From NCBI RefSeq assembly GCF_027913035.1, contig NZ_CP115775.1:744001-808000 (forward strand): a DNA stretch of 64,000 nt. The letters run 5' to 3'. Positions 12,068-62,982 of the stretch are shown here, piece by piece. The notes under the pieces are model-generated. The model had not been told where the DNA came from. It ran no database searches and saw only the letters and a program-made list of their open reading frames with translations. This DNA is from Paracoccus albus. GTDB lineage: Bacteria > Pseudomonadota > Alphaproteobacteria > Rhodobacterales > Rhodobacteraceae. The translations under genes were made by a program, and so were the position numbers. Position 1 is the first letter of the stretch, and the number at the start of each line of letters is the position of its first letter.

Positions 12068-12226
12068 TGGTTAACGGTGGCAGGCATTTCCACGCCGAAA
12101 ACGCCGCGAAAGCGGTTGCATGGGCGGGTTCGACTGCTATATCCCGTTGTGAGGCACGGGGGTTACCCCGGCATCGCGGCATGGCCGCAAACCTAGGGCA
12201 CGTGCCCGCGAACATGAGGATAAGAC

Positions 12227-12460
12227 ATGAGCGATATCGCTGATCGCGTGAAAAAAATCGTTGTCGAGCATCTCGGCGTGGATGAGGACAAGGTCGTTGA
12301 AACCGCGTCTTTCATTGACGATCTGGGTGCAGACAGCCTCGACACGGTCGAGCTGGTCATGGCCTTCGAAGAAGAGTTCGGGATCGAAATTCCTGACGAC
12401 GCCGCCGAAACCATTCAGACCTTCGGCGATGCCGTGAACTTCATCAAAGGCGCGGTCTGA
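12227..12460 (+). CDS. acpP: Acyl carrier protein
   Basis: A 77-residue acidic acyl carrier protein. The phosphopantetheine attachment Ser is in [18 protein letters not shown], preceded by the family's helix 1 ([14 protein letters not shown]). The start has GAGGATAAG upstream. A 12-base palindrome GGGCACGTGCCC (12196-12207) lies in the leader, and a strong terminator follows the stop. The cluster order fabD, fabG, acpP is usual apart from the inserted racemase-like gene. Confidence 0.97.
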
Positions 12461-12485
12461 TCCGTTGCTGAAGTTTTAAGAAAAG

Positions 12486-12510
12486 CGGCGCCTTCGGGCG
12501 CCGTTTTTTT
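12486..12510 (+). terminator. Rho-independent terminator after acpP
   Basis: CGGCGCC and GGCGCCG are separated by a TTCG tetraloop and followed by seven T. It is 25 bases after the acpP stop and closes the fatty acid cluster. Confidence 0.93.
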
Positions 12511-12619
12511 GTTCAGGCAGTTGTCTGTCCCATCAGGTGAGCGCGGTTATTACCTGCAAGGTTCGATGACGTCTGGCATGCTAGGCGGAGATCGGTTGTG
12601 ATGCCAACGCTGGTCTGGC

Positions 12620-13237
12620 TCAACCGCCGTAGCTGCGCGATCCGGTGCGGGAGGTGGAGGACGCGCCGAAGCCGCCTCGTTGGCTGACCTGTGCCGCTGT
12701 CATCGGTGCTTTGCCGACGGTCGAGGGTGCCTTGGTGAAGGTCGAGCCAGCGACCCTGCCTGTGCCGCGATTGTTGGCGAATGTCTGCTTGCCATCAGGT
12801 GTCGCGAAGCCGCCCTGTGCGGTGCGCACCATCGGTTGCGACATGACCCCGCGCCCGCCGCCCAGCATAGAGCCGATCATGTAGCCCATCAGCATCGGCA
12901 TGAAGATAGAGCCGCCGCCGGACTGGTTTTGCGCGGCGGGATCGGTTTCGCAACTGCCGGCACCGTGTTCCTGCTCGCAAAGCTCTTTCGATTCGTATCG
13001 CGGCGCGGTCTCCAGATGGGTTTCCTGCGCCGCTGCGAACTGGGTCTGGCAATCCTGTTCGGTGAAGAACAACGATCCGTTCCGTGCCTCTGCCACGCAG
13101 CTTTCCAGATCAGGGAAGGCGGCGGCGTCGGTTTTTTCTTCCTCGCAGGCAGCCAGTGTCATCACTGCCGTTCCGGCCAAAAACAATGCGACATGGCGGG
13201 AACGTTTGCGGATCGGCTTTTTGGCAGAAGCGGTCAT
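12620..13237 (-). CDS. DUF1190 family lipoprotein-like protein (YgiB-like)
   Basis: A 205-residue exported protein of the DUF1190 (YgiB) family. The signal segment VALFLAGTAVMTLAAC is followed by CEEE, so it may be a lipoprotein. A Cys-containing domain has the repeated pattern of C-x-A/E-x-Q (about residues 45-100). A Gly-rich hydrophobic stretch (MPMLMGYMIGSMLGGGRG) and a low-complexity Gly/Ser/Thr tail end it. It lies 2 bases after the glutathionylspermidine-synthase-like gene, so the two are one operon, as E. coli ygiB and ygiC are paired (in the other order). The biochemical role is unknown. Confidence 0.8.
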   Translation of the reverse strand: MTASAKKPIRKRSRHVALFLAGTAVMTLAACEEEKTDAAAFPDLESCVAEARNGSLFFTEQDCQTQFAAAQETHLETAPRYESKELCEQEHGAGSCETDPAAQNQSGGGSIFMPMLMGYMIGSMLGGGRGVMSQPMVRTAQGGFATPDGKQTFANNRGTGRVAGSTFTKAPSTVGKAPMTAAQVSQRGGFGASSTSRTGSRSYGG

Positions 13238-13239
13238 AT

Positions 13240-14463
13240 TCAGCCCTCGATGTAATGCGGCTTGAAGCGCGAAAGATTATGCGTGATGCGAGAGGCGTCC
13301 TCTCGGATGCCCATACCGACACAGGTTTCGCCGACAATCCAGGCCCCGATGACGGGGTAAAACCCACCAAACTCCGGCAGCGGAGCAAGGGCCTGAACGA
13401 TGCGGGCATGATGGTCATAGCTGTCATCGGGTGCCCGCTCAACCTCGCGTCCGGATTGGTGGATGACCACCCCCGCACCTTCGCGCGAAAAGATCGGCTT
13501 TGTGACATGGCCGGCGCGCAACATGTCCGCCGCACCCTCAAACGCACGGGCGATGCCGGAAGGGGGCGCTTCGCCACGCATTGCGCCCGCGACATCGGCC
13601 TCGAAAAAGGCTGGCAGAAGGTTCGGATGGCCGGGGAACATCTGCCAGAGAAGCGGCAGGATCGCTTTGTTCGACACGACGGCTTTCCAGGCGGGTTCGA
13701 TAAACCGTGTCCCGGAAGAGGCAAGATGCTGTGCGAAATCGTCGCGCAGCATATCTTCCCACGGGTAAAGCTTGAAAAGCGTGCCGATCACCCTGTCTTC
13801 GTCATCGGCAAACTGACCTTCCTTTGTAAGCCCAATTCCGGCCAGATCTGTAAAATGCGCACCCATACCGGCTTCGCGCGCAGCCCAGCCGAGCGCCTCC
13901 ACCGTGGCATAATCTTCTGGATTGGACTTATCCGCCGCAAAATGGATGTCCGTGCCCGGCTCTGCGATCTCAGCAATGCGGGCGACAAGCGCCTCGTGGA
14001 TGGCATTGAATTGATCCGTGCCGGGCGACAACACGCCAAGGCGCTGCTGTTCTTCCAGCCAGAGCCACTGAAAGGATGCAGATTCGTAAAGTGACGTCGG
14101 CGTATCCGCATTGTATTCCAGCAGTTTCGCCGCGCCGGTACCATCGTAAGCCAGATCCATGCGGCCATAAAGTTCAGGCTCGGCCGCTTTCCAGCTGTCG
14201 GCGACGAAATCCCAATGCGCTTCGGGAACCGCCATGCGCTGCAACCATTCGTCGCTGGCAAGGGCTGTGACCACGGCCTCGCGGACCATTTCGTGCAGCG
14301 CGGTACAGGGATCTTCTATATCGTTTTCAACCTCCTCCAGCGTGAAGTGATAGGCAGAGGTTTCTTCCCAATACGGCTCCCCTCCCATATCGGCGAAGGT
14401 AAAGCCCAGCTCTTGGGCGCGGTCGCGCCAGCCGGGTCGTTCGGGCAGGTCGATTTTCTTCAT
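13240..14463 (-). CDS. Glutathionylspermidine synthase family protein (YgiC-like ATP-grasp)
   Basis: A 407-residue member of the glutathionylspermidine synthase-like ATP-grasp family, resembling YgiC/YjfC. Recognisable blocks are W-E-E-T-S-A-Y near residue 33, YGRMDLAYDGTGAAKLLEYN near 130, the metal-binding E-Y-N-A-D-T-P-T, and FIEPAWKAVVSNKAILPLLW near 260. The amidase domain of true bifunctional Gsp synthase is missing. YgiC-like proteins are not proven to make glutathionylspermidine; the substrate may be another peptide-amine pair. It is translationally close to its DUF1190 partner. Confidence 0.82.
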   Translation of the reverse strand: MKKIDLPERPGWRDRAQELGFTFADMGGEPYWEETSAYHFTLEEVENDIEDPCTALHEMVREAVVTALASDEWLQRMAVPEAHWDFVADSWKAAEPELYGRMDLAYDGTGAAKLLEYNADTPTSLYESASFQWLWLEEQQRLGVLSPGTDQFNAIHEALVARIAEIAEPGTDIHFAADKSNPEDYATVEALGWAAREAGMGAHFTDLAGIGLTKEGQFADDEDRVIGTLFKLYPWEDMLRDDFAQHLASSGTRFIEPAWKAVVSNKAILPLLWQMFPGHPNLLPAFFEADVAGAMRGEAPPSGIARAFEGAADMLRAGHVTKPIFSREGAGVVIHQSGREVERAPDDSYDHHARIVQALAPLPEFGGFYPVIGAWIVGETCVGMGIREDASRITHNLSRFKPHYIEG

Positions 14464-49267: not shown

Positions 49268-49343
49268 GGGCCGTTAGCTCAGTTGGTAGAGCAACTGACT
49301 TTTAATCAGTGGGTCGCAGGTTCGAATCCTGCACGGCTCACCA
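49268..49343 (+). tRNA. tRNA-Lys (anticodon TTT), CCA encoded
   Basis: GGGCCGT pairs with ACGGCTC as acceptor stem (one G-U). The D-arm starts TAGCTCAGTTGGTAGAGC. The anticodon arm is ACTGA-CTTTTAA-TCAGT with TTT at the centre, and the T-arm is GCAGG-TTCGAAT-CCTGC. A genomic CCA ends it at 49343. The 3' half is the likely attachment site of the island, because the integrase gene ends five bases downstream. Confidence 0.97.
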
Positions 49344-49347
49344 CCTC

Positions 49348-50478
49348 TCATAAAATATCCTTTCCCTGTTTGGGTTTGGTGTCGGATTTGACGAACCTCT
49401 TGGGAAGGTTCGCCAAATTGCGGTCGCCATTCGGGCGGGCGATCAGTTTCTCAATCGCGGAATCGGCCATGCCTTCGCGGCCAGCGGCCTCGGTGTAGCG
49501 TTGCACGAGGGCCAGCGTTTTGTGGCCTGTGACCGCGCCGATCTCGTGCGCGGTGGCTCCGGCTTCGGCTAGACGTCGCGCGCAAGCCTTGCGCAGCCCG
49601 TGGGCGGAACACTGAGGCAGCTCGGCCTCTTCGGTCCAACGCTGCATGAGATTGCCCAGCCCACCGGCAGAGCGCATGGTGCCTTTCTGGGTGGCCAGGA
49701 ATGGGCGGTCCTTCGGCAACTTGTCCAGAACCTCCGCCAGGTCCGGGTGGATTGGCACGGACACCAGAACACCGCCTGAGCGCTGCGTCTTCTGCCGCCG
49801 GTACTCGATCTTGCCGTTGCGGACGTTCTTCGGCCCCAGCTTCACTGCATCGACCCGCGCCGCGCCGGTGTAGAGCATCAGCGTCACCGCCGTATGTGCC
49901 AGCGTGCCGGGCCTGTAGACCTTGAAGAACTGCGCCAGTTCGTCCTCGTCCCACGTGTGGAACCCGTCACCGCCCACGCGAAACGGTTTCGTCGCGCGAG
50001 CCGGGTTATCGCCGCGCCAGTCCAGAGTGATCGCGAAATCCATCAACTGGATCAGCCGCTTGCGCAGGTTGTTTGCTGCGGTGGGTGTCTCGGCCTTCTC
50101 TGCGAGGATCGTCTGCACATGCCTCCGCTGCATCAATCGCACCGGCTTGTCGCCATGCTCTTCCCGGAACTTCTCGACGATCCCGCGATAAACCTTCTGC
50201 GTGCTGGGCGAGAGATCGAGAAACTCGGGTGAGCGATACCAAAGCGCCACAAGCTGGCTGACACTGTAAGGCTTTGTCCGGTCCGCCCCAATCAGCCCAC
50301 GCGTCTTGTGCCCGTTCACGGCGTCCTCATAGCGCCGAACAAAGTCCTCCGACGCGTAGTCGCTCCCCAACTCCGCCGAAAATCCACCCTTCCGGAATCG
50401 CCAACGCCGTTTCCCGTGCCGGTCGAAATAGGCCGTCGCGCCGGGAAACTGCTTTCGGCGTTTCACTGGCGATCCCAC
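49348..50478 (-). CDS. int: Tyrosine recombinase (integrase)
   Basis: A 376-residue site-specific recombinase. The catalytic residues are visible: Arg in YTGAARVDAVKL near 208, His and Arg in CSAHGLRKACARRL near 293-296, His in GAVTGHKTLALV near 319 and the nucleophile in VQRYTEAAG near 328. The N-terminal arm-binding part is basic. It reads toward the tRNA and stops five bases after its CCA, the usual tRNA-integrase layout. GTG 50478 is used here; GTG 50466, overlapping the preceding stop as GTGA, is equally plausible. It should catalyse integration at the tRNA. Confidence 0.92.
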   Translation of the reverse strand: MGSPVKRRKQFPGATAYFDRHGKRRWRFRKGGFSAELGSDYASEDFVRRYEDAVNGHKTRGLIGADRTKPYSVSQLVALWYRSPEFLDLSPSTQKVYRGIVEKFREEHGDKPVRLMQRRHVQTILAEKAETPTAANNLRKRLIQLMDFAITLDWRGDNPARATKPFRVGGDGFHTWDEDELAQFFKVYRPGTLAHTAVTLMLYTGAARVDAVKLGPKNVRNGKIEYRRQKTQRSGGVLVSVPIHPDLAEVLDKLPKDRPFLATQKGTMRSAGGLGNLMQRWTEEAELPQCSAHGLRKACARRLAEAGATAHEIGAVTGHKTLALVQRYTEAAGREGMADSAIEKLIARPNGDRNLANLPKRFVKSDTKPKQGKDIL

Positions 50479-51022: not shown

Positions 51023-51055
51023 TGAGGTCAACACAAATACAAACGAAAGTTGAAC

Positions 51056-51490
51056 ATGGCTATTGTTGGCCTTGGACATCGCCTTGCGGCAGTACGGAAC
51101 ATGGCGCGACTCTCTCAGGAGGAGATGTCGCAAAAGCTGGGCATCAGTCGAAGCGCTTACCAGAACTACGAGCGTGGTCAGCGAGACTTGACCGCCCAAT
51201 TGCTTCTGAAAGTCTACGAGGAATTCGACGTCGATCCGCTCTGGATGCTCGATGGCGATACCGAGGACGGCAAAAACCGTAGACACGAACAGATCGCCTC
51301 GGCCAATCGAAAAATCGGCATAGCAGTCGAGCGCCGGATCATTGAACGCGGTCTGACCGTGACCCCCGAAAAAAAATGGGACGCCATCGATTTCCTCTTC
51401 GATGAGTTTCTCAACACCGACTCCTTTGCCAATGAAGGCGATGGGCCGGACACCACGAGAATTGACAGCGTATTGAGGTTGGTAAGTTGA
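51056..51490 (+). CDS. XRE family transcriptional regulator
   Basis: A 144-residue regulator. The N-terminal HTH_3 domain (about residues 3-60) reads LAAVRNMARLSQEEMSQKLG then ISRSAYQNYERGQRDLT, a phage Cro/CI type. The remaining 85 residues are charged and helical. Divergent from excisionase and integrase, it is placed like a phage or island repressor. Start ATG 51056; a TTG two codons earlier is possible. Its stop overlaps the next ATG (TGATG). Confidence 0.85.
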   Translation: MAIVGLGHRLAAVRNMARLSQEEMSQKLGISRSAYQNYERGQRDLTAQLLLKVYEEFDVDPLWMLDGDTEDGKNRRHEQIASANRKIGIAVERRIIERGLTVTPEKKWDAIDFLFDEFLNTDSFANEGDGPDTTRIDSVLRLVS

Positions 51491-52074
51491 TGTTGGACGA
51501 AGAACTCCGCGAAGACGTGGTAAATCTCCGCCCGCGCAAACTGCGCTTGGGTCATGGTGTTGAGCGCCTGCTTGAGGGTGTTGCCGGTGCAGAAAGCGAC
51601 CCCAAGAAGGCAGGGCGGGCCGATAGCTTGCGCCCGAAGGCCGATAGCGTCAATGCGGCCCGTTGCACAGGGTGTGGTCATGTCGAATATATCACGCGCG
51701 AATATTGTCGCTGCGGTCACTACCTTGCCGGCCAAATTGAAGACGAATACCTCGCATGGGAGCAAGGTCTCGCCGAAACCCATGAACGTCTTTCGACTGA
51801 AGCGGATCGCAAGCTGAAACCGTTCAGGGTCATGGCACTCGCAGCTCTTCCTTTCCTTATCTGGCCGCTCCTCTATCCTGTGCTCTTTGACGACTTCGGA
51901 TCTTTGAGCACCTGGCTCTGGATTCTGCCCGGAATCGCGATGTTCGGCCTTTTCGGCTTGATCCATGCATTTGTGACTGCCGAGCTCAACGACAGTGCTC
52001 AAGCTCTTGCAACCGCCAACTTCGAACAATTCCTTACTGAGCGCATTCGCGTACCGAGTAATAGCTGCACATGA
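51490..52074 (+). CDS. Zinc-ribbon membrane protein, unknown function
   Basis: A 194-residue protein. Residues 50-75 contain a zinc-ribbon-like pattern (ARCTGCGHVEYITREYCRCG: CxxC and CxC). Two hydrophobic helices follow (VMALAALPFLIWPLLYPVLF near 115-135 and LSTWLWILPGIAMFGLFGLI near 140-160), so it is probably anchored in the inner membrane with the ribbon in the cytoplasm. It is co-translated with the XRE regulator and lies just before the defence operon. No family recognised; it may be a sensor or effector of the system. Confidence 0.65.
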   Translation: MLDEELREDVVNLRPRKLRLGHGVERLLEGVAGAESDPKKAGRADSLRPKADSVNAARCTGCGHVEYITREYCRCGHYLAGQIEDEYLAWEQGLAETHERLSTEADRKLKPFRVMALAALPFLIWPLLYPVLFDDFGSLSTWLWILPGIAMFGLFGLIHAFVTAELNDSAQALATANFEQFLTERIRVPSNSCT

Positions 52075-52207: not shown

Positions 52208-53698
52208 GTGACGAAGCATATTGTTCGGGAGGTGGATGCAACACCCTATGCAGCATCTCTCATCGAGGGCCATCGCGACTTCGGCTACAACCTCGAGACT
52301 GCTCTCGCCGACATCATTGACAACGCCATAACCGCTGGCGCGCGCACGGTGGAACTGATCGCGGACACTGTCGCGGATGAGCCATGGATCGCGCTGTCAG
52401 ACGATGGTTCGGGCATGACGGAGACCGAACTGGTCGAAGCGATGCGTCTCGGGTCGAAGAACCCGACCGACGAGCGCGAGGCCGAAGACCTCGGTCGATT
52501 CGGCCTCGGCCTCAAGAGTGCCAGCTTCTCGCAGTGCCGAAGTCTGACGGTTCTGACGCGGCAAGACGGTCGAAGGTCCTGTGCGCGCTGGGACCTGGAT
52601 CGCGTCGCGAAACGGAACGACTGGAGCCTCGAACTCATCGAAAACCCCGAGGTCGTGACAGGCCATGACCTCCTCGCGGAGAGCGGAACGGTTGTCATCT
52701 GGGAGAAACTCGATCGCTTGAGTGGCGGTTACACCCATGACCGCGCTAAGCGGGCTGAGCATATGAACTCTGAGTTGTCCCGTGCCGAGCATCATCTGCG
52801 CTTGGTGTTTCACCGCTTCTTGGAGGGCGCCAAGCCACGGCTAAAACTGTCACTCAACGGTCGCCCGCTGAAACCCAACGATCCCATGGCAACGTCTCAT
52901 GCCGCCACGCAGAAGGACCCGGAGGAGGTGCTTCGCCTGCGTCAGGGTGACGTCCTGATCAGATGCCACACGCTTCCCCATCACAAGCGGATGAGCCGGG
53001 AAGAATGGGAAGAAATTGGCGGTCCTGATGGGCATCTGAAGGCCCAGGGCCTGTATGTCTACCGCGAGAAACGTCTCATCATCTCGGGGGGGTGGCTGGG
53101 CCTGGCGCGCCAAACCGAACTGACGAAACTCTGCCGTATAGCAGTCGATATCCCCAACACGATGGACGCCGAGTGGAAGATCGACGTCAAGAAGGCCTCG
53201 GCCCAGCTTCCCCCGGTGGTGCGTGAGCGCCTGAAGAAGGTGGTGGAAAGGTTCGTTGGCACATCCAAACGCACCTATCGCAGCAGAGGCCAAAAGCTGG
53301 TCGATGAGACCCGTTTTCCGATCTGGAATCGGGTGCAGAAGGATGGGCAGATCGTCTTCCGCCCCAACCTGGAGCACCCGGTCTTTCGAACCTATTCCGA
53401 TCAGTTGCCAGAAGAACTGCGAGAGGGTTTCGAACGTTGCCTGCGCATCGTTGGGTCTGGTCTGCCGATCGAGACGCTGCATGCTGAACTCGTCGGGAAC
53501 GCGGAAGCGGTCACAGCTGACGAGACTTCAGCAACCGACCTCGAAGAGTTGGTCTATTCCCTTGCAGTGACACTGATGGAAAACGGTGTGCCCTCCGAGG
53601 CTCTGTCGGACACGATGCAGAGCAACCCATTCTTGCGAGTACGGTGGGAAGCTGCCGCACCGATTCTGGAAGACTTTTTAAGGACACGAATTTCATGA
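52208..53698 (+). CDS. GHKL (MutL/MORC-like) ATPase of Mza-type defence system
   Basis: A 496-residue protein with an N-terminal GHKL ATPase. Motif N is ADIIDNAITAGARTVEL near residue 34, G1 is ALSDDGSGMTETEL near 63 and G2 is LGRFGLGLKSASFSQCR near 95. An S5-like domain follows. It resembles MutL/MORC-type ATPases described in restriction-modification islands (Iyer and colleagues, 2008, recalled). I start at GTG 52208 after AAGGAAG; the frame extends 27 bases upstream to a TTG. It begins the operon and its stop overlaps the Z1 start (ATGA). It probably uses ATP to clamp or remodel DNA. Confidence 0.85.
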   Translation: MTKHIVREVDATPYAASLIEGHRDFGYNLETALADIIDNAITAGARTVELIADTVADEPWIALSDDGSGMTETELVEAMRLGSKNPTDEREAEDLGRFGLGLKSASFSQCRSLTVLTRQDGRRSCARWDLDRVAKRNDWSLELIENPEVVTGHDLLAESGTVVIWEKLDRLSGGYTHDRAKRAEHMNSELSRAEHHLRLVFHRFLEGAKPRLKLSLNGRPLKPNDPMATSHAATQKDPEEVLRLRQGDVLIRCHTLPHHKRMSREEWEEIGGPDGHLKAQGLYVYREKRLIISGGWLGLARQTELTKLCRIAVDIPNTMDAEWKIDVKKASAQLPPVVRERLKKVVERFVGTSKRTYRSRGQKLVDETRFPIWNRVQKDGQIVFRPNLEHPVFRTYSDQLPEELREGFERCLRIVGSGLPIETLHAELVGNAEAVTADETSATDLEELVYSLAVTLMENGVPSEALSDTMQSNPFLRVRWEAAAPILEDFLRTRIS

Positions 53699-56445
53699 AT
53701 GAAGCTATCGAGACAGTGAAGAACATGGTCGAAAGTGGCCTGTTCAATCAGGCACGTAAGACCGAAGATGAGCTTCGCAGTATGATCAGAGGCGTCGCAG
53801 CTTTGGTCCCGCCGGGCCTCAGCGGAGAAGAGATCGAGCAGATTGCGCGGGAGATCGAGCACAAGCAGGGTATCAAGGCTGGACTTGGTGCGGTGGTCGA
53901 CAGCGAGGATTTCGAACCTTGGCTGGATGACGCGAAGCCGTTGATCGAGCCTTTCTACTGGAACCGCTACCAGAAATTGCTCCTGCAAAACGGCCTACCG
54001 AAAGACGTTGTGATTTCCACGGACACGGTTACGGATAAAATCCTCAGCCGACTAGGCAACCCCGAGAAACACGTACCGTGGGATCGGCGTGGCATGGTGG
54101 TTGGCCACGTTCAAAGCGGCAAGACCGCCAATTATACGGGCCTGATCTGCAAGGCGGCTGATGCAGGGTACAGGCTGATCATCGTTATTGCGGGTATTCA
54201 CAACAACCTTAGAAACCAGACACAGGCCCGGATCGACGAGGGCTTCATCGGTCGCGATACCGGGAAGTCCCAGGAAACCAAGAAGGGCGGTGCAAAACAC
54301 ATCATCGGCGTCGGCCATTTTGACCCGAACAAAACACCGGTCAGCCTTACCAACACGCTACGGGATTTCAACAAGGCCACGGCCTCAACTAACACAAGCG
54401 AGATTGACTCCTACAAGGTTCCTGTCGTCCTCGTAATCAAGAAGCAGTCGAATACGCTCCGCAACCTGCTGCAATGGCTCAAGGACAATAGCGCTCGCGG
54501 TGACCGTGAGATGATTGATCAGCCTATGCTGCTCATTGATGACGAGGCAGACAACGCTTCGATCAATACCAAGTACAATAGGGAGGAAGTCACGACCACA
54601 AATAGGTTGATCCGCGAGCTTCTGAATACTTTCCACCGGAGTTGCTATGTCGGCTACACCGCAACTCCTTTCGCGAATATCTTCATCGACCCTGATCAAG
54701 ACGATGAAATGCTGGCGGAAGACTTGTTTCCGAAGGACTTTATCATCGGCCTTGATGCGCCATCCAATTATTTCGGCGGCAAAAAGGTTTTTGTCGAAGG
54801 CTTGCCGGATGATGAGGAGCCAACTTGGCTGAGGTATGTCTACGACAATGAGGATGTTCTTCCCGTCAAACATCCACAGGACTTTGTCGTGGAAGCACTC
54901 CCAGACTCGCTGGTGAAAGCTGTTCGCGCCTTCGTGCTGACTGCTGCTATTCGCAAGCTAAGAAATCAAGAGCACAAACACTGCTCGATGTTGGTTAACG
55001 CAAGCTTCCGGAACCCAATTCAAGCACAGCTCCGGAATCGGCTACATGAAGTACTTCAACGGATTCAGAATGCTGTCAGAGTGAACGGTTCAACTGGTAG
55101 CAAGGGAATTGCGGACCCCGAGATCGCAGCTTTGAAAGAAGTATGGGAAAGCGAATTCAAGACGGCCCACTCCTCATGGGATGAGGTTCAGGCTGCAATA
55201 CATGAGGCCATAGCTGCGGCACAGGTCGTGTTGGTGAACTACAAGTCGAAGGATGTCTTGGAATATCCCGATGAAGCTCGTGGCAAAGCGGGTAGAAAAT
55301 ACATTGCAGTCGGTGGTTTTTCTCTGTCGCGCGGTCTAACGCTCGAGGGACTGACGGTAACTTGGTTCCTGCGTAACACGAAGATGTACGATACCCTCAT
55401 GCAAATGGGCCGGTGGTTTGGATACCGGACAGGATACGAGGATCTCTGCCGCATTTGGATGCCAGCCGAAGCTATTGGTTGGTACGCATATATTGCGAAC
55501 GCGACAGAGGAATTGCACTCAGAAATTCACGATATGGCGTCTGTTCCGACAGCCACTCCCAGGGATTTCGGTTTGGCGGTGCGAAGTCATCCAGCTTCGT
55601 TGCTGGTCACAGCACGCAACAAGATGGGATCGGGAACAAAGGTCACGACGCTGATTGGGCTCTCCAACAAATTTGTCGAGACATCGAGAGTCAGCATTAG
55701 ATCAGGTGATCTTGCCGCGAATATTGCTGCGGCTAGGTCTCTGGTTTCGAAGTTCAAAGGCGCAGGCTTGGAGGAGGAGCGATCGCCTTGGGGAGCGCTC
55801 TATCGTGGCGTGCCGGTCCAGTTCATAGACGAATTTCTCGCGGCTTGGCGCAACGCAGACCAGAGCGTAACGACTGACCCGGCCCCGGTCAGAAAGTATA
55901 TCGATGCACGGAGTTCGGACGAGCTGCAAACATGGGACGTATTAGTTCCCAGCTTAACCAAAGGCGAGGCCAACGGAACGCTGGGCATGCCGATCGTGCC
56001 CGCCACGCGATATGTAGACCTGCACGATCTGCAACATGATTTCATGTCATTCAGTGGGAAGCGAATGCGTGTTGCGTCTCGGGGTATCGAGAAGGCTGGT
56101 GTAGACCCGGCAAGGGCTGAGGCAGCCGAGTCGCGGTATCGGGAAGAAAACGGGAAGGCAGACAGTGAACGCGTGAACTATCCGGACTCGATCTACCGAC
56201 GAGAAAGAGATCGCGGCCTTTTCATCCTCCATTTCGTCAAGGCGAAGGCGCCAGATGGAAAGGAAGATGCCAAGCAAGTCGACCTGATCCCTGCTGACCC
56301 CGTTGTGGCGTGGGGCATAAGCCTTCCAGTTTCTTCTCGCCCGGCTGAACGCGTTGAATACGTGGTGAATACGGTGCGCTATCGGGAACTCTTCGGTGAA
56401 GAAGACGAAGACGAAGATCAGGAGGCACCTCTTGAAACCTCTTGA
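53695..56445 (+). CDS. Z1-domain superfamily II helicase-like protein
   Basis: A 916-residue protein with the Z1 domain. Walker A is VVGHVQSGKTANYTGLI near residue 138, Walker B MLLIDDEADNASINT near 280, SYVGYTATPFANIF-like motif III follows (CYVGYTATPFANIF), and the Arg-finger motif VI is LMQMGRWFGYRTGYEDLCR near 570. Z1 proteins are translocase-like ATPases found with MutL-like ATPases in defence islands. ATG 53695 overlaps the previous stop by four bases with AAGGA before it. The C-terminal end overlaps the next gene by 14 bases. Confidence 0.9.
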   Translation: MNEAIETVKNMVESGLFNQARKTEDELRSMIRGVAALVPPGLSGEEIEQIAREIEHKQGIKAGLGAVVDSEDFEPWLDDAKPLIEPFYWNRYQKLLLQNGLPKDVVISTDTVTDKILSRLGNPEKHVPWDRRGMVVGHVQSGKTANYTGLICKAADAGYRLIIVIAGIHNNLRNQTQARIDEGFIGRDTGKSQETKKGGAKHIIGVGHFDPNKTPVSLTNTLRDFNKATASTNTSEIDSYKVPVVLVIKKQSNTLRNLLQWLKDNSARGDREMIDQPMLLIDDEADNASINTKYNREEVTTTNRLIRELLNTFHRSCYVGYTATPFANIFIDPDQDDEMLAEDLFPKDFIIGLDAPSNYFGGKKVFVEGLPDDEEPTWLRYVYDNEDVLPVKHPQDFVVEALPDSLVKAVRAFVLTAAIRKLRNQEHKHCSMLVNASFRNPIQAQLRNRLHEVLQRIQNAVRVNGSTGSKGIADPEIAALKEVWESEFKTAHSSWDEVQAAIHEAIAAAQVVLVNYKSKDVLEYPDEARGKAGRKYIAVGGFSLSRGLTLEGLTVTWFLRNTKMYDTLMQMGRWFGYRTGYEDLCRIWMPAEAIGWYAYIANATEELHSEIHDMASVPTATPRDFGLAVRSHPASLLVTARNKMGSGTKVTTLIGLSNKFVETSRVSIRSGDLAANIAAARSLVSKFKGAGLEEERSPWGALYRGVPVQFIDEFLAAWRNADQSVTTDPAPVRKYIDARSSDELQTWDVLVPSLTKGEANGTLGMPIVPATRYVDLHDLQHDFMSFSGKRMRVASRGIEKAGVDPARAEAAESRYREENGKADSERVNYPDSIYRRERDRGLFILHFVKAKAPDGKEDAKQVDLIPADPVVAWGISLPVSSRPAERVEYVVNTVRYRELFGEEDEDEDQEAPLETS

Positions 56446-57394
56446 TCCCTGGGAAAGACTGGACCCGGACGAAGCCAAACGGGTCGATGTCGCGGGCCGT
56501 TTCGATTTCTTCTGGGTGGTGCTGGAAGCAGGCATGCCCGGCCTGATGCTGAGGCTGCCAGGCCTGCCGCAACCACTGCCGCGTCTGCCGCAGTTGAAGA
56601 ACCTTGTCGCGTCCTTCCGCCCTGTCTCGGGCGGATCGGCATTTGTTCTCGGCCTCAAGGAAAGAAGTCAGGTCGAGATATTCGAGACCCTTTGCCGAGA
56701 TGTGGTAGAGGCTGGGGAAGCAAGCGCGGATCGCGACGAAGCGCTCTGCAGAGCGCTGCAACGCACCCGACGCTGGTATCACCTTCTGCGCGGTGGGAAG
56801 ACCAATGGGCTGTCCGTTGAAGAGCAGCGAGGGCTTGTTGGCGAGTTGGCCTTCCTTCGGGAGCTTGTCTCCGCCTTCGGCCCGGACACGGCGATCGAGG
56901 CCTGGACCGGTCCGACCGGCTCGGCGAAGGACTTCGAGCTTATCGGAAGCTGCGTCGAGGTGAAGGCAAGGCGGGTTGCTGCAAAGCCGTTCGTGGCCAT
57001 TTCGTCCGAAGACCAGCTCGCGGATGTCGAAGGGAGCCGCCTGTGCCTTCGTGTGATCAATGTGGCGTCGGCCGTCCTGCCGGAAGGTCAGAGCCTGCAT
57101 GATCACGTGCGAATGACGGCCGAGATGTTCGAAGAAGACGGCGCGGCCTTCGATGCTTGGGAAGAGACGCTCCATTCGACTGGATATGATCCCGAGAACG
57201 ACTACGACGAGCGGCGATGGCTTCTTAGCGCTGCGACCGATTACGAGGTGACAGAAGGTTTCCCCCGGATTTCCACGCCTCTTGTTCCGGGCGTGGAGAA
57301 TGTCCGGTACGCGATCGCTCTCGATGCCTGCGAACCGTTCAAATTGGAAGGTGATCTGATCGACGTCATCCAAGGAGGGCTTGATCATGAGTGA
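56432..57394 (+). CDS. PD-(D/E)XK nuclease-like protein (DUF4420-like)
   Basis: A 320-residue protein whose middle region carries a PD-(D/E)XK-like set: GLVGELAFLRELVSAFGP near 130, then TGSAKDFELIGSCVEVKA near 165, with Asp, Glu and the E-V-K triplet spaced as in restriction endonucleases. The rest matches DUF4420 by eye. Start TTG 56432 follows a perfect AGGAGG by six bases; a GTG at 56396 would add 12 residues within the Z1 gene. It is probably the nuclease of the operon. Its stop overlaps the AIPR start by 8 bases. Confidence 0.82.
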   Translation: MKPLDPWERLDPDEAKRVDVAGRFDFFWVVLEAGMPGLMLRLPGLPQPLPRLPQLKNLVASFRPVSGGSAFVLGLKERSQVEIFETLCRDVVEAGEASADRDEALCRALQRTRRWYHLLRGGKTNGLSVEEQRGLVGELAFLRELVSAFGPDTAIEAWTGPTGSAKDFELIGSCVEVKARRVAAKPFVAISSEDQLADVEGSRLCLRVINVASAVLPEGQSLHDHVRMTAEMFEEDGAAFDAWEETLHSTGYDPENDYDERRWLLSAATDYEVTEGFPRISTPLVPGVENVRYAIALDACEPFKLEGDLIDVIQGGLDHE

Positions 57395-59471
57395 TCTGGA
57401 AGAATTCCATCATGAACTTATCGCCGATATCCAGGGCGATGCTGACGTCCTCGGCCTTGTCACGGTCGAGGCGTTTTTCGAGAAGGTTGGCGAACTGCTT
57501 ACCGAGGCCGGGGAATTGGATGGCGCAAACAGAGCGTATTTCGAGGGCGGCGGCGCCAGCAATCCCATGCGGATCGACGGCTATGGCGGCGATCCAAGGG
57601 ATGGCGATGGCGTCCTGAGCCTCGTGTTGTGCGACTTTGATCTGTCCGAGGAGGTGCGTGTTCAGAACAAGGAACAGATTCAGCGCCTTCTGCAGCGACT
57701 CTACAGATTTGTTGTTTCAAGCCTCAAGGCCGATTTCCGGGAGCAATTGGAAGAGACCAGTGCCGGGTTCGGCGTAGCCGACCTCATCGCCACGACGTGG
57801 AAGGACGTCGAGAAGGTCAAGCTCATAATCGTGACTAATGCAGATTTTCGCGCCCGTGCCGATGCGGCGAACGTGAAGGATCTTGATGGCAGACCGGTCA
57901 CCCTCAGCGTCTGGGACCTGAAGCGTCTCAAGCAATACATGGAACAGGGACAGGCACGGGCGAATCTGATCATCGATTTCGACAAAGACTTCGGCGGGAG
58001 TGTTCCCCTTCTTGCGGCCTCCGGAAGCGATAGTGCGCTCGAAAGCTACCTGGCGGTCATTCCCGGAAAGCAGCTGGCCGCCATCTACGACAAGTGGGGA
58101 CCACGCCTGCTCGAGGCCAACGTGAGAAGCTTTCTTCAAGCACGCGGCAAGGTGAATCAGGGCATCCGCAACACGATCCGCGATGAGCCGCACATGTTCT
58201 TTTCCTACAACAACGGCCTCAGTGCGACAGCCGACGCGATAGAGGTGGAGCAAGGAGATCATGGCCATCTCTTGGTTCGCGCGGACAATCTGCAGATCGT
58301 CAATGGTGGGCAGACCACGGCCTCACTCCACGCAGCGCGAAAGGCGTTTGTCGAGCAGTTGGAACAGGTTCATGCCCAGATGAAGTTGACCATCGTTCCG
58401 CGAGAACAGTCCGAACTCGTTGTCCCGCGCATCTCCGAATACGCGAACAGTCAGAACAAGGTGAATGCAGCAGACTTCTTCGCCAATCACCCCTTCCACA
58501 TCCGGACTGAAGAGCTGTCGCGCAAAGTTCTGGCGCGGGGAGAGGACGGGTATCGGGACACGAAATGGTTCTATGAACGCGCACGAGGACAATATGCGGA
58601 CGAACGAGGGCGAAGGACCATCGCAGAGCGAAAGAAGTTCGATGCCGAGTTCCCGCGCTCCCAGTTCCTCACGAAGACCGATTTGGCCAAGTTTGAGAAC
58701 ACCTGGGCTTGCCTGCCGCACATCGTGAGCCTTGGTGCGCAGAAGAACTTCGCGGAATTCGCCAAGCATATCGGCAAACGTTGGGGTTCCGAAGGTGCGG
58801 CGTTCGATGAGCTCTGGTACAGGCGCATGATCGCAAAGACCATCATCTTCCGGGCCACTGAAAAACTGGTCTCGGGCGCGGAATGGTATGAAGGCGGCTA
58901 CCGCGCCAACATCGTGACCTATGCGATTGCCAAGCTCGTGCATGATGCAGAGGAACGGGAGATGGTGGTCGACCTGGACGCCGTCTGGAGATACCAGGAT
59001 GTCACGCCTGATCTGAAGGCGGCACTGTTGGTTGCTGCGGCAGAAGCTCAGGACGTGATCACGCACCCGCCCGAGGGCGTGCGAAACTTCAGCGAATGGG
59101 CCAAGAAGCAGGCTTGTTGGAAGGGGCTGGAGGATCGTGAGTTGAGCTATCCGGAGGAATTCGATCGAGTACTGATTTCACCGGACCTGGCCAATGAGCG
59201 CGCGAGAGAGGCCCGTGCGGACAAGGCTGTCGAGACCAGCGTCGAGGCCGAGCTTGAGGTGCATAGGCTCGGCGCCGCGTTCTGGGCAGAAGCCCGGAAT
59301 TGGGCGCGGGAGCGTGGGCTTCTGTCCCCGCGGGAAAATGGCGTTCTGGAAACGTGCGCCGCGATCCCGAGCAAGATGCCGTCGGACAAGCAATGCGCGA
59401 TTGCGATGAGCGCGCTCAAAAAGCTTCAGGATGAAGGTTTTTCAACTGGCGTGGGCGTCGATGCAACCTGA
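57387..59471 (+). CDS. AIPR family protein of Mza-type defence system
   Basis: A 694-residue AIPR (abortive infection phage resistance) protein. Signature blocks are LLEANVRSFLQARGKVNQGI near 247, EPHMFFSYNNGLSATADA near 268, QIVNGGQTTASLHAARKAFV near 303 and RISEYANSQNKVNAADFFAN near 350. N-terminal 150 residues are acidic. AIPR proteins occur in phage-defence operons and may be nucleic-acid enzymes, but no mechanism is proven. ATG 57387 overlaps the nuclease stop; the C-terminus overlaps the DUF2971-like gene by 11 bases. Confidence 0.9.
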   Translation: MSDLEEFHHELIADIQGDADVLGLVTVEAFFEKVGELLTEAGELDGANRAYFEGGGASNPMRIDGYGGDPRDGDGVLSLVLCDFDLSEEVRVQNKEQIQRLLQRLYRFVVSSLKADFREQLEETSAGFGVADLIATTWKDVEKVKLIIVTNADFRARADAANVKDLDGRPVTLSVWDLKRLKQYMEQGQARANLIIDFDKDFGGSVPLLAASGSDSALESYLAVIPGKQLAAIYDKWGPRLLEANVRSFLQARGKVNQGIRNTIRDEPHMFFSYNNGLSATADAIEVEQGDHGHLLVRADNLQIVNGGQTTASLHAARKAFVEQLEQVHAQMKLTIVPREQSELVVPRISEYANSQNKVNAADFFANHPFHIRTEELSRKVLARGEDGYRDTKWFYERARGQYADERGRRTIAERKKFDAEFPRSQFLTKTDLAKFENTWACLPHIVSLGAQKNFAEFAKHIGKRWGSEGAAFDELWYRRMIAKTIIFRATEKLVSGAEWYEGGYRANIVTYAIAKLVHDAEEREMVVDLDAVWRYQDVTPDLKAALLVAAAEAQDVITHPPEGVRNFSEWAKKQACWKGLEDRELSYPEEFDRVLISPDLANERAREARADKAVETSVEAELEVHRLGAAFWAEARNWARERGLLSPRENGVLETCAAIPSKMPSDKQCAIAMSALKKLQDEGFSTGVGVDAT

Positions 59472-59913
59472 ATCGAACAGGAAGCTGTACAAGTTCAGTG
59501 GTCCAACCGAGTACGCTCTCCAGAACCTGGAGAACGGGGTGATTTTTTGTCAGCACTACTCAGCTTACAATGATCCATTCGAATTCTGGAGCAACATCTA
59601 CGAAGGCATCCCCGATCCAAAGGTCGAACCAGAAAGATTTCTTGCCGCTGCATCGGCGTGGGGGTTCGGTACCAAGCCTGCCGAATGGAGCTACGAACGC
59701 GAACGACGTTTGTTGGTGCAGTCTGATCGTGACGACGAATTGCCGATCCTGCGCAAGTACCCCGCTGACGCCATCACGCAAATCGTGGTGGGCGAGAGGA
59801 TGCCATCCGACTACCGACGCCGCCTCGAAGCCGTTCTGTCGAAAAACTACGGCAGTGTTCCAATCTCCACCGCGCGACGGTCACCGTCGACTTACCGCTT
59901 GGAAATCGAGTGA
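59461..59913 (+). CDS. Short DUF2971-like protein, end of defence operon
   Basis: A 150-residue protein with both ends of the DUF2971 pattern: LYKFSGPTEYALQNLENGVI and HYSAYNDPFEFW at the N-terminus, and PAEWSYERERRLLVQSDRDD in the C-terminal half. Usual members are about 250-300 residues, with a longer stretch between N-D-P-F-E and W-S-Y-E; here only about 50 residues separate them. So it is an internal deletion or a compact form. DUF2971 proteins are seen in defence islands, but their role is unknown. ATG 59461 lies inside the AIPR stop region. Confidence 0.7.
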   Translation: MQPESNRKLYKFSGPTEYALQNLENGVIFCQHYSAYNDPFEFWSNIYEGIPDPKVEPERFLAAASAWGFGTKPAEWSYERERRLLVQSDRDDELPILRKYPADAITQIVVGERMPSDYRRRLEAVLSKNYGSVPISTARRSPSTYRLEIE

Positions 59914-59959
59914 GCCGAGGTTCGGCGAAGAGCTTCTGTTGAATGAATACACGGCGCTG

Positions 59960-61474
59960 CTAGAGACTGTCAAAGATCGGCAATAGGACCTCCGCAATCT
60001 GCCGCGCAAGAAACGGCGGCACGGCGTTCCCGACCTGCACGAATTGCTCGGTGCGATTGCCCATGAAATGGTAGTTGTCGGGGAAGGTCTGCAGCCGTGC
60101 GGCCTCGCGCACCGTCAGGCTGCGGCACTGCGTCGGGTCGGGGTGAATGAAGTAGTGCCCATCTTTCGAGATGTGGCTCGTTACCGTCGAAGCCGGAGCG
60201 TTGCCAACTTGAACTCGAAACCGGTCGTTGAACTTGCCCGTTTTCCAGTTCTTGTGGTTCGGTGCCAGGATGTCTGGAAACTGGTGCGCACGCGGGCTCA
60301 GGCCCTCGGCCTTCGCGAAACAGGCGGCATAGAGGTAGCGGGCAAGATCGGATGGCATGTGTCCACGGGTTTCGTGACCCGAGACGCCTATCAGGTTCGG
60401 GTCGTCGAGGAACGCGGCCAGCTCTGGCTGCAGTTTCCTTGATAGGGGTTTTCGCGCGTGGCTCGTTCGGCCCATCTGAGACGTTGCCAGCAAACGTTCC
60501 TCGACACGATCCAACTCGTCCCGAAAGCTGCTAAAGTTCTCGCCTGGGTATTCTCGAGTGATCTGACCAGCGGCTTCGATCGCATCTACAACAGCGTCAT
60601 ACCAGGCATGTTCGTCGTCGCGTCTACTCAATCCGCTTCTCAGCCGCGGCAAGCCGGTCAACATGTCCTTAACCTGTACCATCGAGCTCCGCCGATGAAG
60701 TTTGGGAGCGGCACTCGCGTCAATATCCGATCTGATACCAACGATGATCACCCTGTGGCGTGCCTGCGGCACTCCGTGGTCTTCTGCGCGAATGACGAAA
60801 TCCTTCGGTTCGGGATGATCACCCGGCAGAATGCTGGCCGACAAGGACAAGAGTCTGTAGCCGGGACCAGCATGTTGGAGATCAGACATGACCTGTTCGA
60901 AGATCGCCAGCCCCTCGACAGTCGAAGAGAGCATGCCCTTGACGTTCTCCATTACGAACACTGCGGGGCTCAGCTCATTCAATACACGACAATATTCACG
61001 ATAGAGGAAATTGCGCTCGTCGTCTTTCGGTCGGTAGTCCTCAATCCCTGCGTTACGTGAGCGCCCGGCAAGAGAGTATGCTTGGCAAGGCGGACCACCG
61101 ATCAAAAGCGTTCGATCGCCTGCTGTTCTGTTGGTTTCGGAAATCCTCTCCGACAAGAGCGCGGCGGTTTCTGCTTTACCAAGCTCTGCGCAAACGGCCT
61201 CATTCTCGGCGGCTTTCCATTCACGCGGAAAGAGGTTCTTCCAATCCGGGCAGTCGTGCTTTCCGGAAATCCATGAATAGTACTCGGGTGGAAACTTGCG
61301 GAACTGACGCAAGAACGCGCGAAGTCGGAGTGTCTTGTGCGCAGCACTATCCTTCTCAATCGACACAGAAATCTCGTAGGCACGAGAACCATCCGCGTGC
61401 ATGCACGATGAAAATCCTTCCCCAAGGCCGCCCGGGCCAGAGAATAGATCAATTATCTGAACGGGTTTTGACAC
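59960..61474 (-). CDS. DNA cytosine-5 methyltransferase (Dcm family)
   Basis: A 504-residue m5C methyltransferase. Motif I is IIDLFSGPGGLGEGFSS near residue 8, motif IV GGPPCQAYSLAGRSR with the nucleophile Cys130, motif VI FVMENVKGM near 176, motif VIII DHGVPQARHRVIIVG and motif X QVGNAVPPFLARQ near 483. An insertion of about 60 residues between motifs I and IV is larger than in Dcm. The target recognition domain lies at about 270-440. It faces the defence operon and is divergent from vsr with a 57-base gap. It should protect host DNA. Confidence 0.93.
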   Translation of the reverse strand: MSKPVQIIDLFSGPGGLGEGFSSCMHADGSRAYEISVSIEKDSAAHKTLRLRAFLRQFRKFPPEYYSWISGKHDCPDWKNLFPREWKAAENEAVCAELGKAETAALLSERISETNRTAGDRTLLIGGPPCQAYSLAGRSRNAGIEDYRPKDDERNFLYREYCRVLNELSPAVFVMENVKGMLSSTVEGLAIFEQVMSDLQHAGPGYRLLSLSASILPGDHPEPKDFVIRAEDHGVPQARHRVIIVGIRSDIDASAAPKLHRRSSMVQVKDMLTGLPRLRSGLSRRDDEHAWYDAVVDAIEAAGQITREYPGENFSSFRDELDRVEERLLATSQMGRTSHARKPLSRKLQPELAAFLDDPNLIGVSGHETRGHMPSDLARYLYAACFAKAEGLSPRAHQFPDILAPNHKNWKTGKFNDRFRVQVGNAPASTVTSHISKDGHYFIHPDPTQCRSLTVREAARLQTFPDNYHFMGNRTEQFVQVGNAVPPFLARQIAEVLLPIFDSL

Positions 61475-61531
61475 TGCATTACTCCTCGATCTCCTCTTTC
61501 CAGGTTTTCGGACTCATGGCAAGGAGTAGGA

Positions 61532-61996
61532 ATGGTAGACATCGTTGATACCAGAACCCGCTCACAGATGATGAGTAACATTCGCGGCAAGGATACAAAG
61601 CCCGAGCTTGCTCTCAGAAGGGCTCTTCACGCGCGGGGTTTTCGATTCCGGCTGCATGTGAAGGATGTCCCCGGAAGGCCTGACATCGTGTTTCCAAAGT
61701 ATCGCGCGGTCGTGTTTGTTCATGGGTGCTTCTGGCACCGTCATGCCGGTTGTCGATATGCAACCGTCCCCAAGACCCGTGCGGAATTTTGGAAGACGAA
61801 ATTCGCCGCAAACGTATCAAGAGACGCTGCGGTCCACGACAAGTTGATCAGGAAGGGGTGGCGAGTTGCCACCGTTTGGGAATGCGCTTTGCGGAACCCC
61901 AAAGCATTGACGCAAACGACAGAGATGGTGGCAACTTGGCTCAAGTCAGATGAGCCTGAAATGGAACTTGGTGAGCTTCAGGTCGAGCCGCATTAG
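61532..61996 (+). CDS. vsr: Very short patch repair (Vsr) endonuclease
   Basis: A 154-residue Vsr-type nicking enzyme that cuts beside T-G mismatches left by deaminated 5-methylcytosine. Conserved features are RTRSQMMSNIRGKDTKPELA, RLHVKDVPGRPDIVFPKYRA, VFVHGCFWHRHAGCRYATVP and RKGWRVATVWECAL. The metal ligand Asp is in GRPDIVF and the zinc cysteines are in HGCFW and AGCRY. It pairs with the divergent methyltransferase, as dcm and vsr do. The ribosome site is AAGGAGTAGG. Confidence 0.95.
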   Translation: MVDIVDTRTRSQMMSNIRGKDTKPELALRRALHARGFRFRLHVKDVPGRPDIVFPKYRAVVFVHGCFWHRHAGCRYATVPKTRAEFWKTKFAANVSRDAAVHDKLIRKGWRVATVWECALRNPKALTQTTEMVATWLKSDEPEMELGELQVEPH

Positions 61997-62108: not shown

Positions 62109-62387
62109 ATGTCTCGTAAACCGCACAAGTCCAAGGAGATCGAGGCGGTCTTGCGTGAGCTGGAAGCCTTGGGGTGGACGGTCACTTTGCGTTCCGGGCG
62201 CGGGCATGCCTGGGGCCTGATCAGGTGCCCGAACAACGATCCGGACTGCCGGTGCGGTGAGTTTTGTCAGATGGGTGTCTGGTCGACGCCACAGAATCCG
62301 GGCCGGTTTGCCCGGCAACTGAGGAACCGTGCGCTTGGCTGCACGAAGCTAGGCAATGCCGATGATGGCGCTCAAGAGGATGAATGA
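62109..62387 (+). CDS. HicA-like toxin candidate with Cys-rich insert
   Basis: A 92-residue protein. The N-terminal half matches the HicA RNase pattern: SKEIEAVLRELEALGWTVTL then RSGRGHAWG with the catalytic-type His. A Cys-rich insert (CPNNDPDCRCGEFCQ) that HicA lacks could bind zinc. It is followed by a gene for an HTH protein after 1 base, the layout of a toxin-antitoxin pair. Start ATG 62109 has GAAAG upstream. Whether it is a toxin is not shown; HicB-like sequence is not obvious in the partner. Confidence 0.6.
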   Translation: MSRKPHKSKEIEAVLRELEALGWTVTLRSGRGHAWGLIRCPNNDPDCRCGEFCQMGVWSTPQNPGRFARQLRNRALGCTKLGNADDGAQEDE

Positions 62388-62388
62388 C

Positions 62389-62982
62389 ATGGCAGAAATC
62401 GAATTCGAACTGATCTTCGCCCTTCCCGGAGGTGATCACGATGCGTTCGAACTGATGGATGCGGTTTTCGAGGCCGGATTCGAGGACGCCATCGTTGGCA
62501 CTGGTGTCCCTGGCATGATCGGGATCGCGCTGGAAGCTGCCAGCGATCACGCCGAAGATGCCATTCTAGACGCCGCGCGCGCGATCCAGAAACAGCTTCC
62601 TGCTGGGTCTGTACTGCGTGAAGTGCGCCCGGACCTGGTCAGCCTCGCTGATGTTGCAAAGCGGCTCGACGTGACACGTCAGTCTCTCCAGAAGCGGAAA
62701 ATGCCCTTGCCCAGCCAGGGCGGTCTGTTCCGCATGGAAGAGGTTGCCGTCGTCATCATGGAAGCCGCGCAAGGTAAGGGCGCAGGAACCCGCAAGGGGC
62801 GTTTCTCGATCGAGAAGGCTGCTAGATGGCTGAGCGCCGGCAAACCTGCGCGCAGGGTCAACGCTGGTCTTGCCGTCGGCGTCATTGACGGTGCGACGCT
62901 GGAAGTGCGCGAGGATGCCAAGCACTTCATCTACGCGGACAATCCGGCAACCGACCCACGGAATAGTGCTGGCGCGGTCTGA
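62389..62982 (+). CDS. HTH protein, partner of the HicA-like gene
   Basis: A 197-residue protein. Residues 1-75 form an alpha/beta domain (IEFELIFALPGGDHDAFELM), and about 90-125 an HTH of MerR/excisionase type: VSLADVAKRLDVTRQSLQKR then KMPLPSQGGLFRMEEV. The last 60 residues are Ala-rich. ATG 62389 follows AAGAGGA by nine bases; an earlier ATG at 62380 is possible. As the second gene of a pair with a palindrome before the operon, it is the likely antitoxin and repressor. No family name is known to me. Confidence 0.6.
   Translation: MAEIEFELIFALPGGDHDAFELMDAVFEAGFEDAIVGTGVPGMIGIALEAASDHAEDAILDAARAIQKQLPAGSVLREVRPDLVSLADVAKRLDVTRQSLQKRKMPLPSQGGLFRMEEVAVVIMEAAQGKGAGTRKGRFSIEKAARWLSAGKPARRVNAGLAVGVIDGATLEVREDAKHFIYADNPATDPRNSAGAV

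Follow-up and report, generated by a model that had tools for sequence, protein, structure and literature searches.

In a Mza-like operon of Paracoccus albus, the allele classes of two helicase-gene regions do not track the other genes of the operon

The stretch of the Paracoccus albus chromosome analysed here (the window; 64,000 nucleotides, NZ_CP115775.1, positions 744,001 to 808,000 of the forward strand) contains a Mza-like operon whose helicase gene, mzaC, has two polymorphic blocks. We show that the allele classes of MzaC are modular and depart from the pattern of the other operon genes, and that the two regions of the helicase gene have been swapped between strains largely independently of those genes. 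The gene set resembles a known class of antiviral systems that cut DNA. In window positions, the operon and the two genes beyond it are laid out as follows:

52208..53698, + strand: mzaB, GHKL ATPase of the MORC family (HATPase_c_3, 1.5e-33; PADLOC MzaB, 1.9e-87)
53048-53080, + strand: MORC motif GLYVYREKRLI in mzaB (motif as defined in the excerpted text of PMC2292703)
53695..56445, + strand: mzaC, helicase (PADLOC, 6.5e-134)
54772..55581, + strand: MzaC block 1, residues 361-540 with 601-630, flanking conserved motifs V and VI
55672..56391, + strand: MzaC block 2, the C-terminal domain, residues about 661-900, ending at the mzaD start
56432..57394, + strand: mzaD, PD-(D/E)XK nuclease (DUF4420, 7.2e-63; PADLOC, 1.8e-18)
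56930-56965, + strand: D..ExK motif of mzaD
57387..59471, + strand: mzaE, AIPR protein (AIPR, 9.6e-101; AIPR_N, 1.4e-36; PADLOC, 1.9e-83)
59461..59913, + strand: DUF2971-like gene with an internal in-frame deletion, 150 against 304 residues (PADLOC PDC-S31, 3.5e-18)
59960..61474, - strand: C5-cytosine DNA methyltransferase (DNA_methylase, 7.2e-48; dcm superfamily, over cut-off)
61532..61996, + strand: vsr, very-short-patch-repair endonuclease (Vsr, 1.4e-31; TIGR00632, over cut-off)

The loci compared (L with a number) came from an MzaE scan of named genomes, from which the best 80 of 86 places were kept; one genome scan gave 45 places and, besides the window's own and G049, 36 of 43 were taken and 7 weak or short ones omitted. 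MzaC was compared without L054, whose contig starts within mzaE, and residue n of MzaC corresponds to window base 53692+3(n-1). Alignment A3 leaves out L084 and L099 (stops reported), and A4 leaves out L084 and L101 (stops) and L112 (no reported stop). At 14 loci, MzaB, MzaD and MzaE are 85-98% identical to those of the window, while MzaC is 64-80% identical in eleven and 92-95% in three. Across 15 loci, block 1 is 43-50% identical between its two main classes and 85-100% within them; block 2, with at least four classes, is 42-70% identical between and 77-99% within them. One main class of block 1 comprises the window, L053 (the Paracoccus aurantiacus locus), L061 and L063, and the other L049-L052, L055-L060 and L064, with L062 standing apart. 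Block 2 joins the window, L053, L061 and L063 with L049, L057 and L058, groups L050, L051, L056 and L060 as a second class and L052, L059 and L064 as a third, and leaves L055 alone.

Synonymous sites jump along with the amino acids, which points to imported alleles. Between the window and L049, the proportions of synonymous and nonsynonymous differences (pS/pN) are 0.14/0.01 in mzaB, 0.19/0.02 in mzaD and 0.14/0.01 in mzaE, compared with 0.50/0.06 in the N part of mzaC and 0.82/0.38 in block 1. The MzaC proteins of L052 and L056 are 99% identical over residues 1-290 and 44% identical in the C-terminal block, with pS/pN rising from 0.21/0.01 in the N part to 0.77/0.42 in block 2. On a tree of B, D and E from 18 loci, three block sets were rejected as clades, at log-likelihood losses of 281, 178 and 223, and the classes changed at least five times in block 1, at least seven times in block 2 and at least four times in methyltransferase type; two, three and one changes, respectively, would be needed if each class were a clade.

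In a second sample, drawn from the best 120 of 624 MzaC proteins (116 of the 120, those longer than 850 residues, were used), block 1 again fell into two sharp classes, of 15 and 91 proteins, with 10 in neither. Among the 55 sequences whose N part is at least 88% identical, block 1 was 40-60% identical to that of the window in 41 and at least 70% identical in 14, and none fell between 60 and 70%. For other lineages, 32 of 35 pairs had a block 2 less identical than B, the N part, motifs V/VI and E, although these pairs are not independent because loci are shared between them; in Shewanella loci L072 and L073, B is 96%, E 99% and block 2 59% identical. Escherichia coli genomes, tried as a population sample, gave no match to a Shewanella mzaC. 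No report of MzaC polymorphism was found in the literature searched, which lacked most subscription journals.

The methyltransferase is exchanged between loci as well. That of the window is 50% identical to that of L008, with B-E at 90-95%, while those of L008 and L009 are 95% identical, with B-E at 29-43%; the target region is the most divergent part, its TRDa averaging 22% identity between the two methyltransferase types. Since this exchange occurs beside B-E proteins that are 90-95% identical, the reading of such islands as a restriction enzyme with its matching methylase is doubtful. Distance correlations were calculated for the 54 of 81 loci at which all five genes are present, 13 of which belong to the window's clade. 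Within this clade, distances for B, D and E are strongly correlated with one another (0.96-0.98), whereas no correlation is seen among the two blocks and the methyltransferase parts (-0.08 to -0.01; block 2 versus the methyltransferase target region, -0.08; block 1 versus block 2, -0.01), and the blocks show almost no correlation with those three proteins (-0.01 to 0.12).

Besides the shared loci among the 35 pairs, several points weigh against independent exchange of the blocks. Over the 54 loci, the partial correlation between block 2 and the methyltransferase target region persists at 0.27 (0 of 2000 permutations), so the decoupling is clear only within the window's clade. When the blocks were drawn slightly wider and 16 loci compared, weak correlations appeared: for block 2 with MzaC residues 1-50 (0.35) and with the tail of MzaB (0.25), for block 1 with stretches of B, C and D (0.31-0.34). 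The block classes were defined from the very loci that were used to test them, and the p-values of the clade tests should therefore not be read literally. The proteins of the second sample were retrieved by way of block 2, and 8 of the 120 belong to the first sample as well; exchange of the methyltransferase, moreover, does not necessarily bring a new methylation site. Variation also extends to MzaE residues 51-125 (57531-57755, counted from 57381), where mean pairwise identity in 15 loci is 74-83%, compared with 95% and 90% on the flanking sides; this is perhaps another exchanged segment.

Swapping of this kind would be expected in a component that either recognises viruses or evades them. 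Because the blocks follow the partner proteins only loosely and, inside the clade, do not follow the methyltransferase, whatever they interact with probably lies outside the operon and may be a phage component or an inhibitor. In BREX, PglX is thought to bring sequence specificity, and it is possible, if rather doubtful, that the methyltransferase here similarly gives the whole complex its specificity and is freely exchanged for that reason, the variation of MzaC having another cause. The exchange beside near-constant B-E and the low identity of TRDa fit this idea; however, the methyltransferase lies on the opposite strand, outside the overlapping genes, and 5 of the 51 loci with enough flank on both sides have no methyltransferase match over 900 bases nearby.

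HsdS carries two target-recognition domains that are exchanged as independent modules. The MzaC blocks, likewise two modules exchanged independently in one subunit, could be DNA target-recognition domains that set the restricted sequence, a site that the linked methyltransferase would then protect, and the weak family-wide partial correlation is in keeping with this; we consider it unlikely, since the methyltransferases of the window and L052 are 86% identical (76% and 100% in the target region parts) while their MzaC blocks are 46% and 49% identical, and each methyltransferase type is found together with block 2 class I and with class II. It is similarly improbable that the blocks are weakly constrained surfaces that diverged without a recognition function: the catalytic motifs are indeed the conserved stretches between the variable ones, and, of seven segments compared, block 2 shows the lowest conservation in 23 of the 35 other-lineage pairs, but identity within classes is high (77-100%), that of block 1 is bimodal and synonymous sites jump, which favours import of foreign alleles over local relaxation.

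Family matches are strong in every gene of the operon but the fifth. The initial annotation had described five overlapping genes (52208-59913), a methyltransferase convergent with them and a vsr divergent from the methyltransferase, and this layout held when the coordinates were rechecked, as did its assignments of the GHKL/MORC-like ATPase (through HATPase_c_3 and the MORC motif), the AIPR protein and, by the DUF4420 profile, the PD-(D/E)XK protein. Sequence profiles showed conserved catalytic motifs in the helicase (68 sequences), the GHKL ATPase (68) and the methyltransferase (63). Kept in 68 of 68 sequences are the G and R of the MORC motif, the MzaC motif DTLxQMGRWFG (DTLMQMGRWFG in the window) and the D, E and K of MzaD, the three residues of E-D-ExK that were placed. 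Against solved structures, MzaC gave no match and MzaE no significant one (best E 0.051).

The operon had been matched to Mza (mzaABCDE; Gao et al. 2020, as represented in Miller 2022, PADLOC and NCBIfam), and this stands in part. Order and domains of B-C-D-E are common to both, the PADLOC matches to MzaB, C, D and E being adjacent and in order, and a Thalassospira example annotated by NCBI likewise has a cytosine methyltransferase downstream; B-C-D-E occurred in order at 70 of the 80 loci. However, the NCBIfam Mza equivalog cut-offs were missed (B 354/850, C 540/1500, D 108/420 and E 373/1050 bits). The Thalassospira locus, taken as a control, passed one of five cut-offs (B-E 824, 1408, 363 and 1057 bits; MzaA 487/800), and the window proteins score less than half as high as its proteins. 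The MzaA sigma factor is not adjacent, the upstream genes encoding an HTH_3 protein and one with no assigned family, and a Thalassospira MzaA-like query of the whole genome found matches only more than 200 kb away.

The 'Type II' of Miller et al. 2022 (PMC9523054, excerpted text) has a MORC protein and a putative regulator, paralleled here by the MORC motif of MzaB and an upstream helix-turn-helix (HTH) gene; that excerpt mentions neither vsr nor DUF2971 nor MzaC alleles for it, says that Type I goes with DNA repair endonucleases and gives DUF4220 where Pfam here gives DUF4420. The resemblance to the restriction-modification islands of Iyer et al. that had been proposed was largely borne out. 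According to the excerpted text of Iyer et al. 2008 (PMC2292703), the third type shares with the window a MORC ATPase with its motif, a superfamily 2 (SF2) helicase, a nuclease apparently of restriction-endonuclease (RE) fold, cytosine methylases and Vsr, and AIPR is named in the legend of Fig. 2; the helicase motif DThhQXuRhFG agrees with DTLMQMGRWFG in MzaC and the MORC motif GhXhhpXXRhl with GLYVYREKRLI in MzaB, while allele exchange is not described in that excerpt. CglI, by the excerpt on CglI and NgoAVII (PMC4267653), has a PLD-B3 R-protein, in contrast with the PD-(D/E)XK protein, MORC ATPase and AIPR found here. The BREX-related BR systems, in the excerpted PMC12839542, likewise combine a conserved defence ATPase core (DUF499) with a hypervariable C-terminal domain, which their authors read as invader recognition; the ATPase is unrelated, the domain has an RRM fold, and the excerpt mentions neither MORC nor AIPR.

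The DUF2971-like gene and vsr had been taken as extensions of the core set, which did not hold for either. Methyltransferase and Vsr are both usual and were rejected as extensions: among the 51 loci with full flanks, the methyltransferase is present at 46 and both together at 42, and in 21 of 59 loci the methyltransferase is placed otherwise than convergent and downstream (38 of 59). As side observations, MzaE of L058 (JAHVJD010000004.1) is 90% identical, and L097, L099, L100, L102 and L110 have MzaE at 46-52% identity in the vicinity of a remote MzaB-like ATPase (34-37%); four of these loci have Vsr and none an MzaC or MzaD match, and this group appears to be another arrangement of the same parts.

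DUF2971 was rejected as a core member: it follows mzaE in 7 of 80 loci, a count from two DUF2971 queries at E 1e-5 that may therefore miss distant genes. Two of the seven are cut by a contig end; at L013, on the same contig as L050, the first 23 residues of the protein are found at the edge of the contig. One other, at L056 (Pontibaca salina), carries a separate internal deletion, out of frame. Full-length versions in two genomes of the same genus have 304 and 295 residues. The window copy aligns to residues 1-69 and 222-303 of the 304-residue homologue and to nothing between; the gene is 462 bases shorter with its frame kept, and PF11185, residues 122-238 of the intact homologue, is nearly all lost. 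The joined form occurred in none of 23 homologues of 84-263 residues, longer proteins lying outside this search, and the short gene was rejected as an established variant; 3 of the 23 match both halves, with 119-161 residues between them. We take the window gene to be decayed and probably dispensable, although an assembly error could conceivably lie behind its shortened form. The same slot holds an HNH protein in L037 and L043, an AbiEi/AbiEii pair in L035 and, in L052 (uncultured Roseovarius; 12076-13403, mzaE to methyltransferase), divergent dUTPase/dCTP-deaminase-like and dCMP-deaminase genes that are reminiscent of nucleotide-depletion defence. The slot appears to serve as a landing site for accessory defence genes.

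The operon lies in an island to the right of a tRNA-Lys gene, where synteny with four genomes of the same genus (L138-L141) breaks off at 49344. The left part of the island contains:

49268..49343, + strand: tRNA-Lys, left edge of the variable island
49348..50478, - strand: tyrosine-recombinase integrase (Pfam Phage_integrase, 4e-11)
51050..51490, + strand: Xre-type HTH regulator (HTH_3, 2.6e-12)
51487..52074, + strand: small protein with Cys motifs and a hydrophobic stretch, as read from its sequence, accompanying the HTH gene

A second copy of the tRNA-Lys 3' end of at least 14 bases, as an attachment repeat, was not found up to genome position 884999. An Rfam search matched the tRNA alone, and promoter- and terminator-like sites were rarer than in shuffled sequence. 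The small protein had no Pfam match over cut-off. The HTH and Cys-motif pair (51050-52074) co-occurs near Mza-like loci in L049, L057 and L037: the regulator, 5' of mzaB, is 97% identical in L049 and 96% in L057, the small protein 85% and 84%, and in L037 the pair (71% and 40%) lies near a distant mza type. To the right of vsr, an overlapping pair on the + strand (62109-62387 and 62356-62982) matches PADLOC candidate defence genes (PDC-M06A, 1.8e-29; PDC-M06B, 7.2e-24).

These results touch on the question of what Mza-like systems recognise, in that the allele pattern points to one subunit and to two regions within it. Natural allele pairs, such as L052 and L056, allow this question of recognition to be tested directly.
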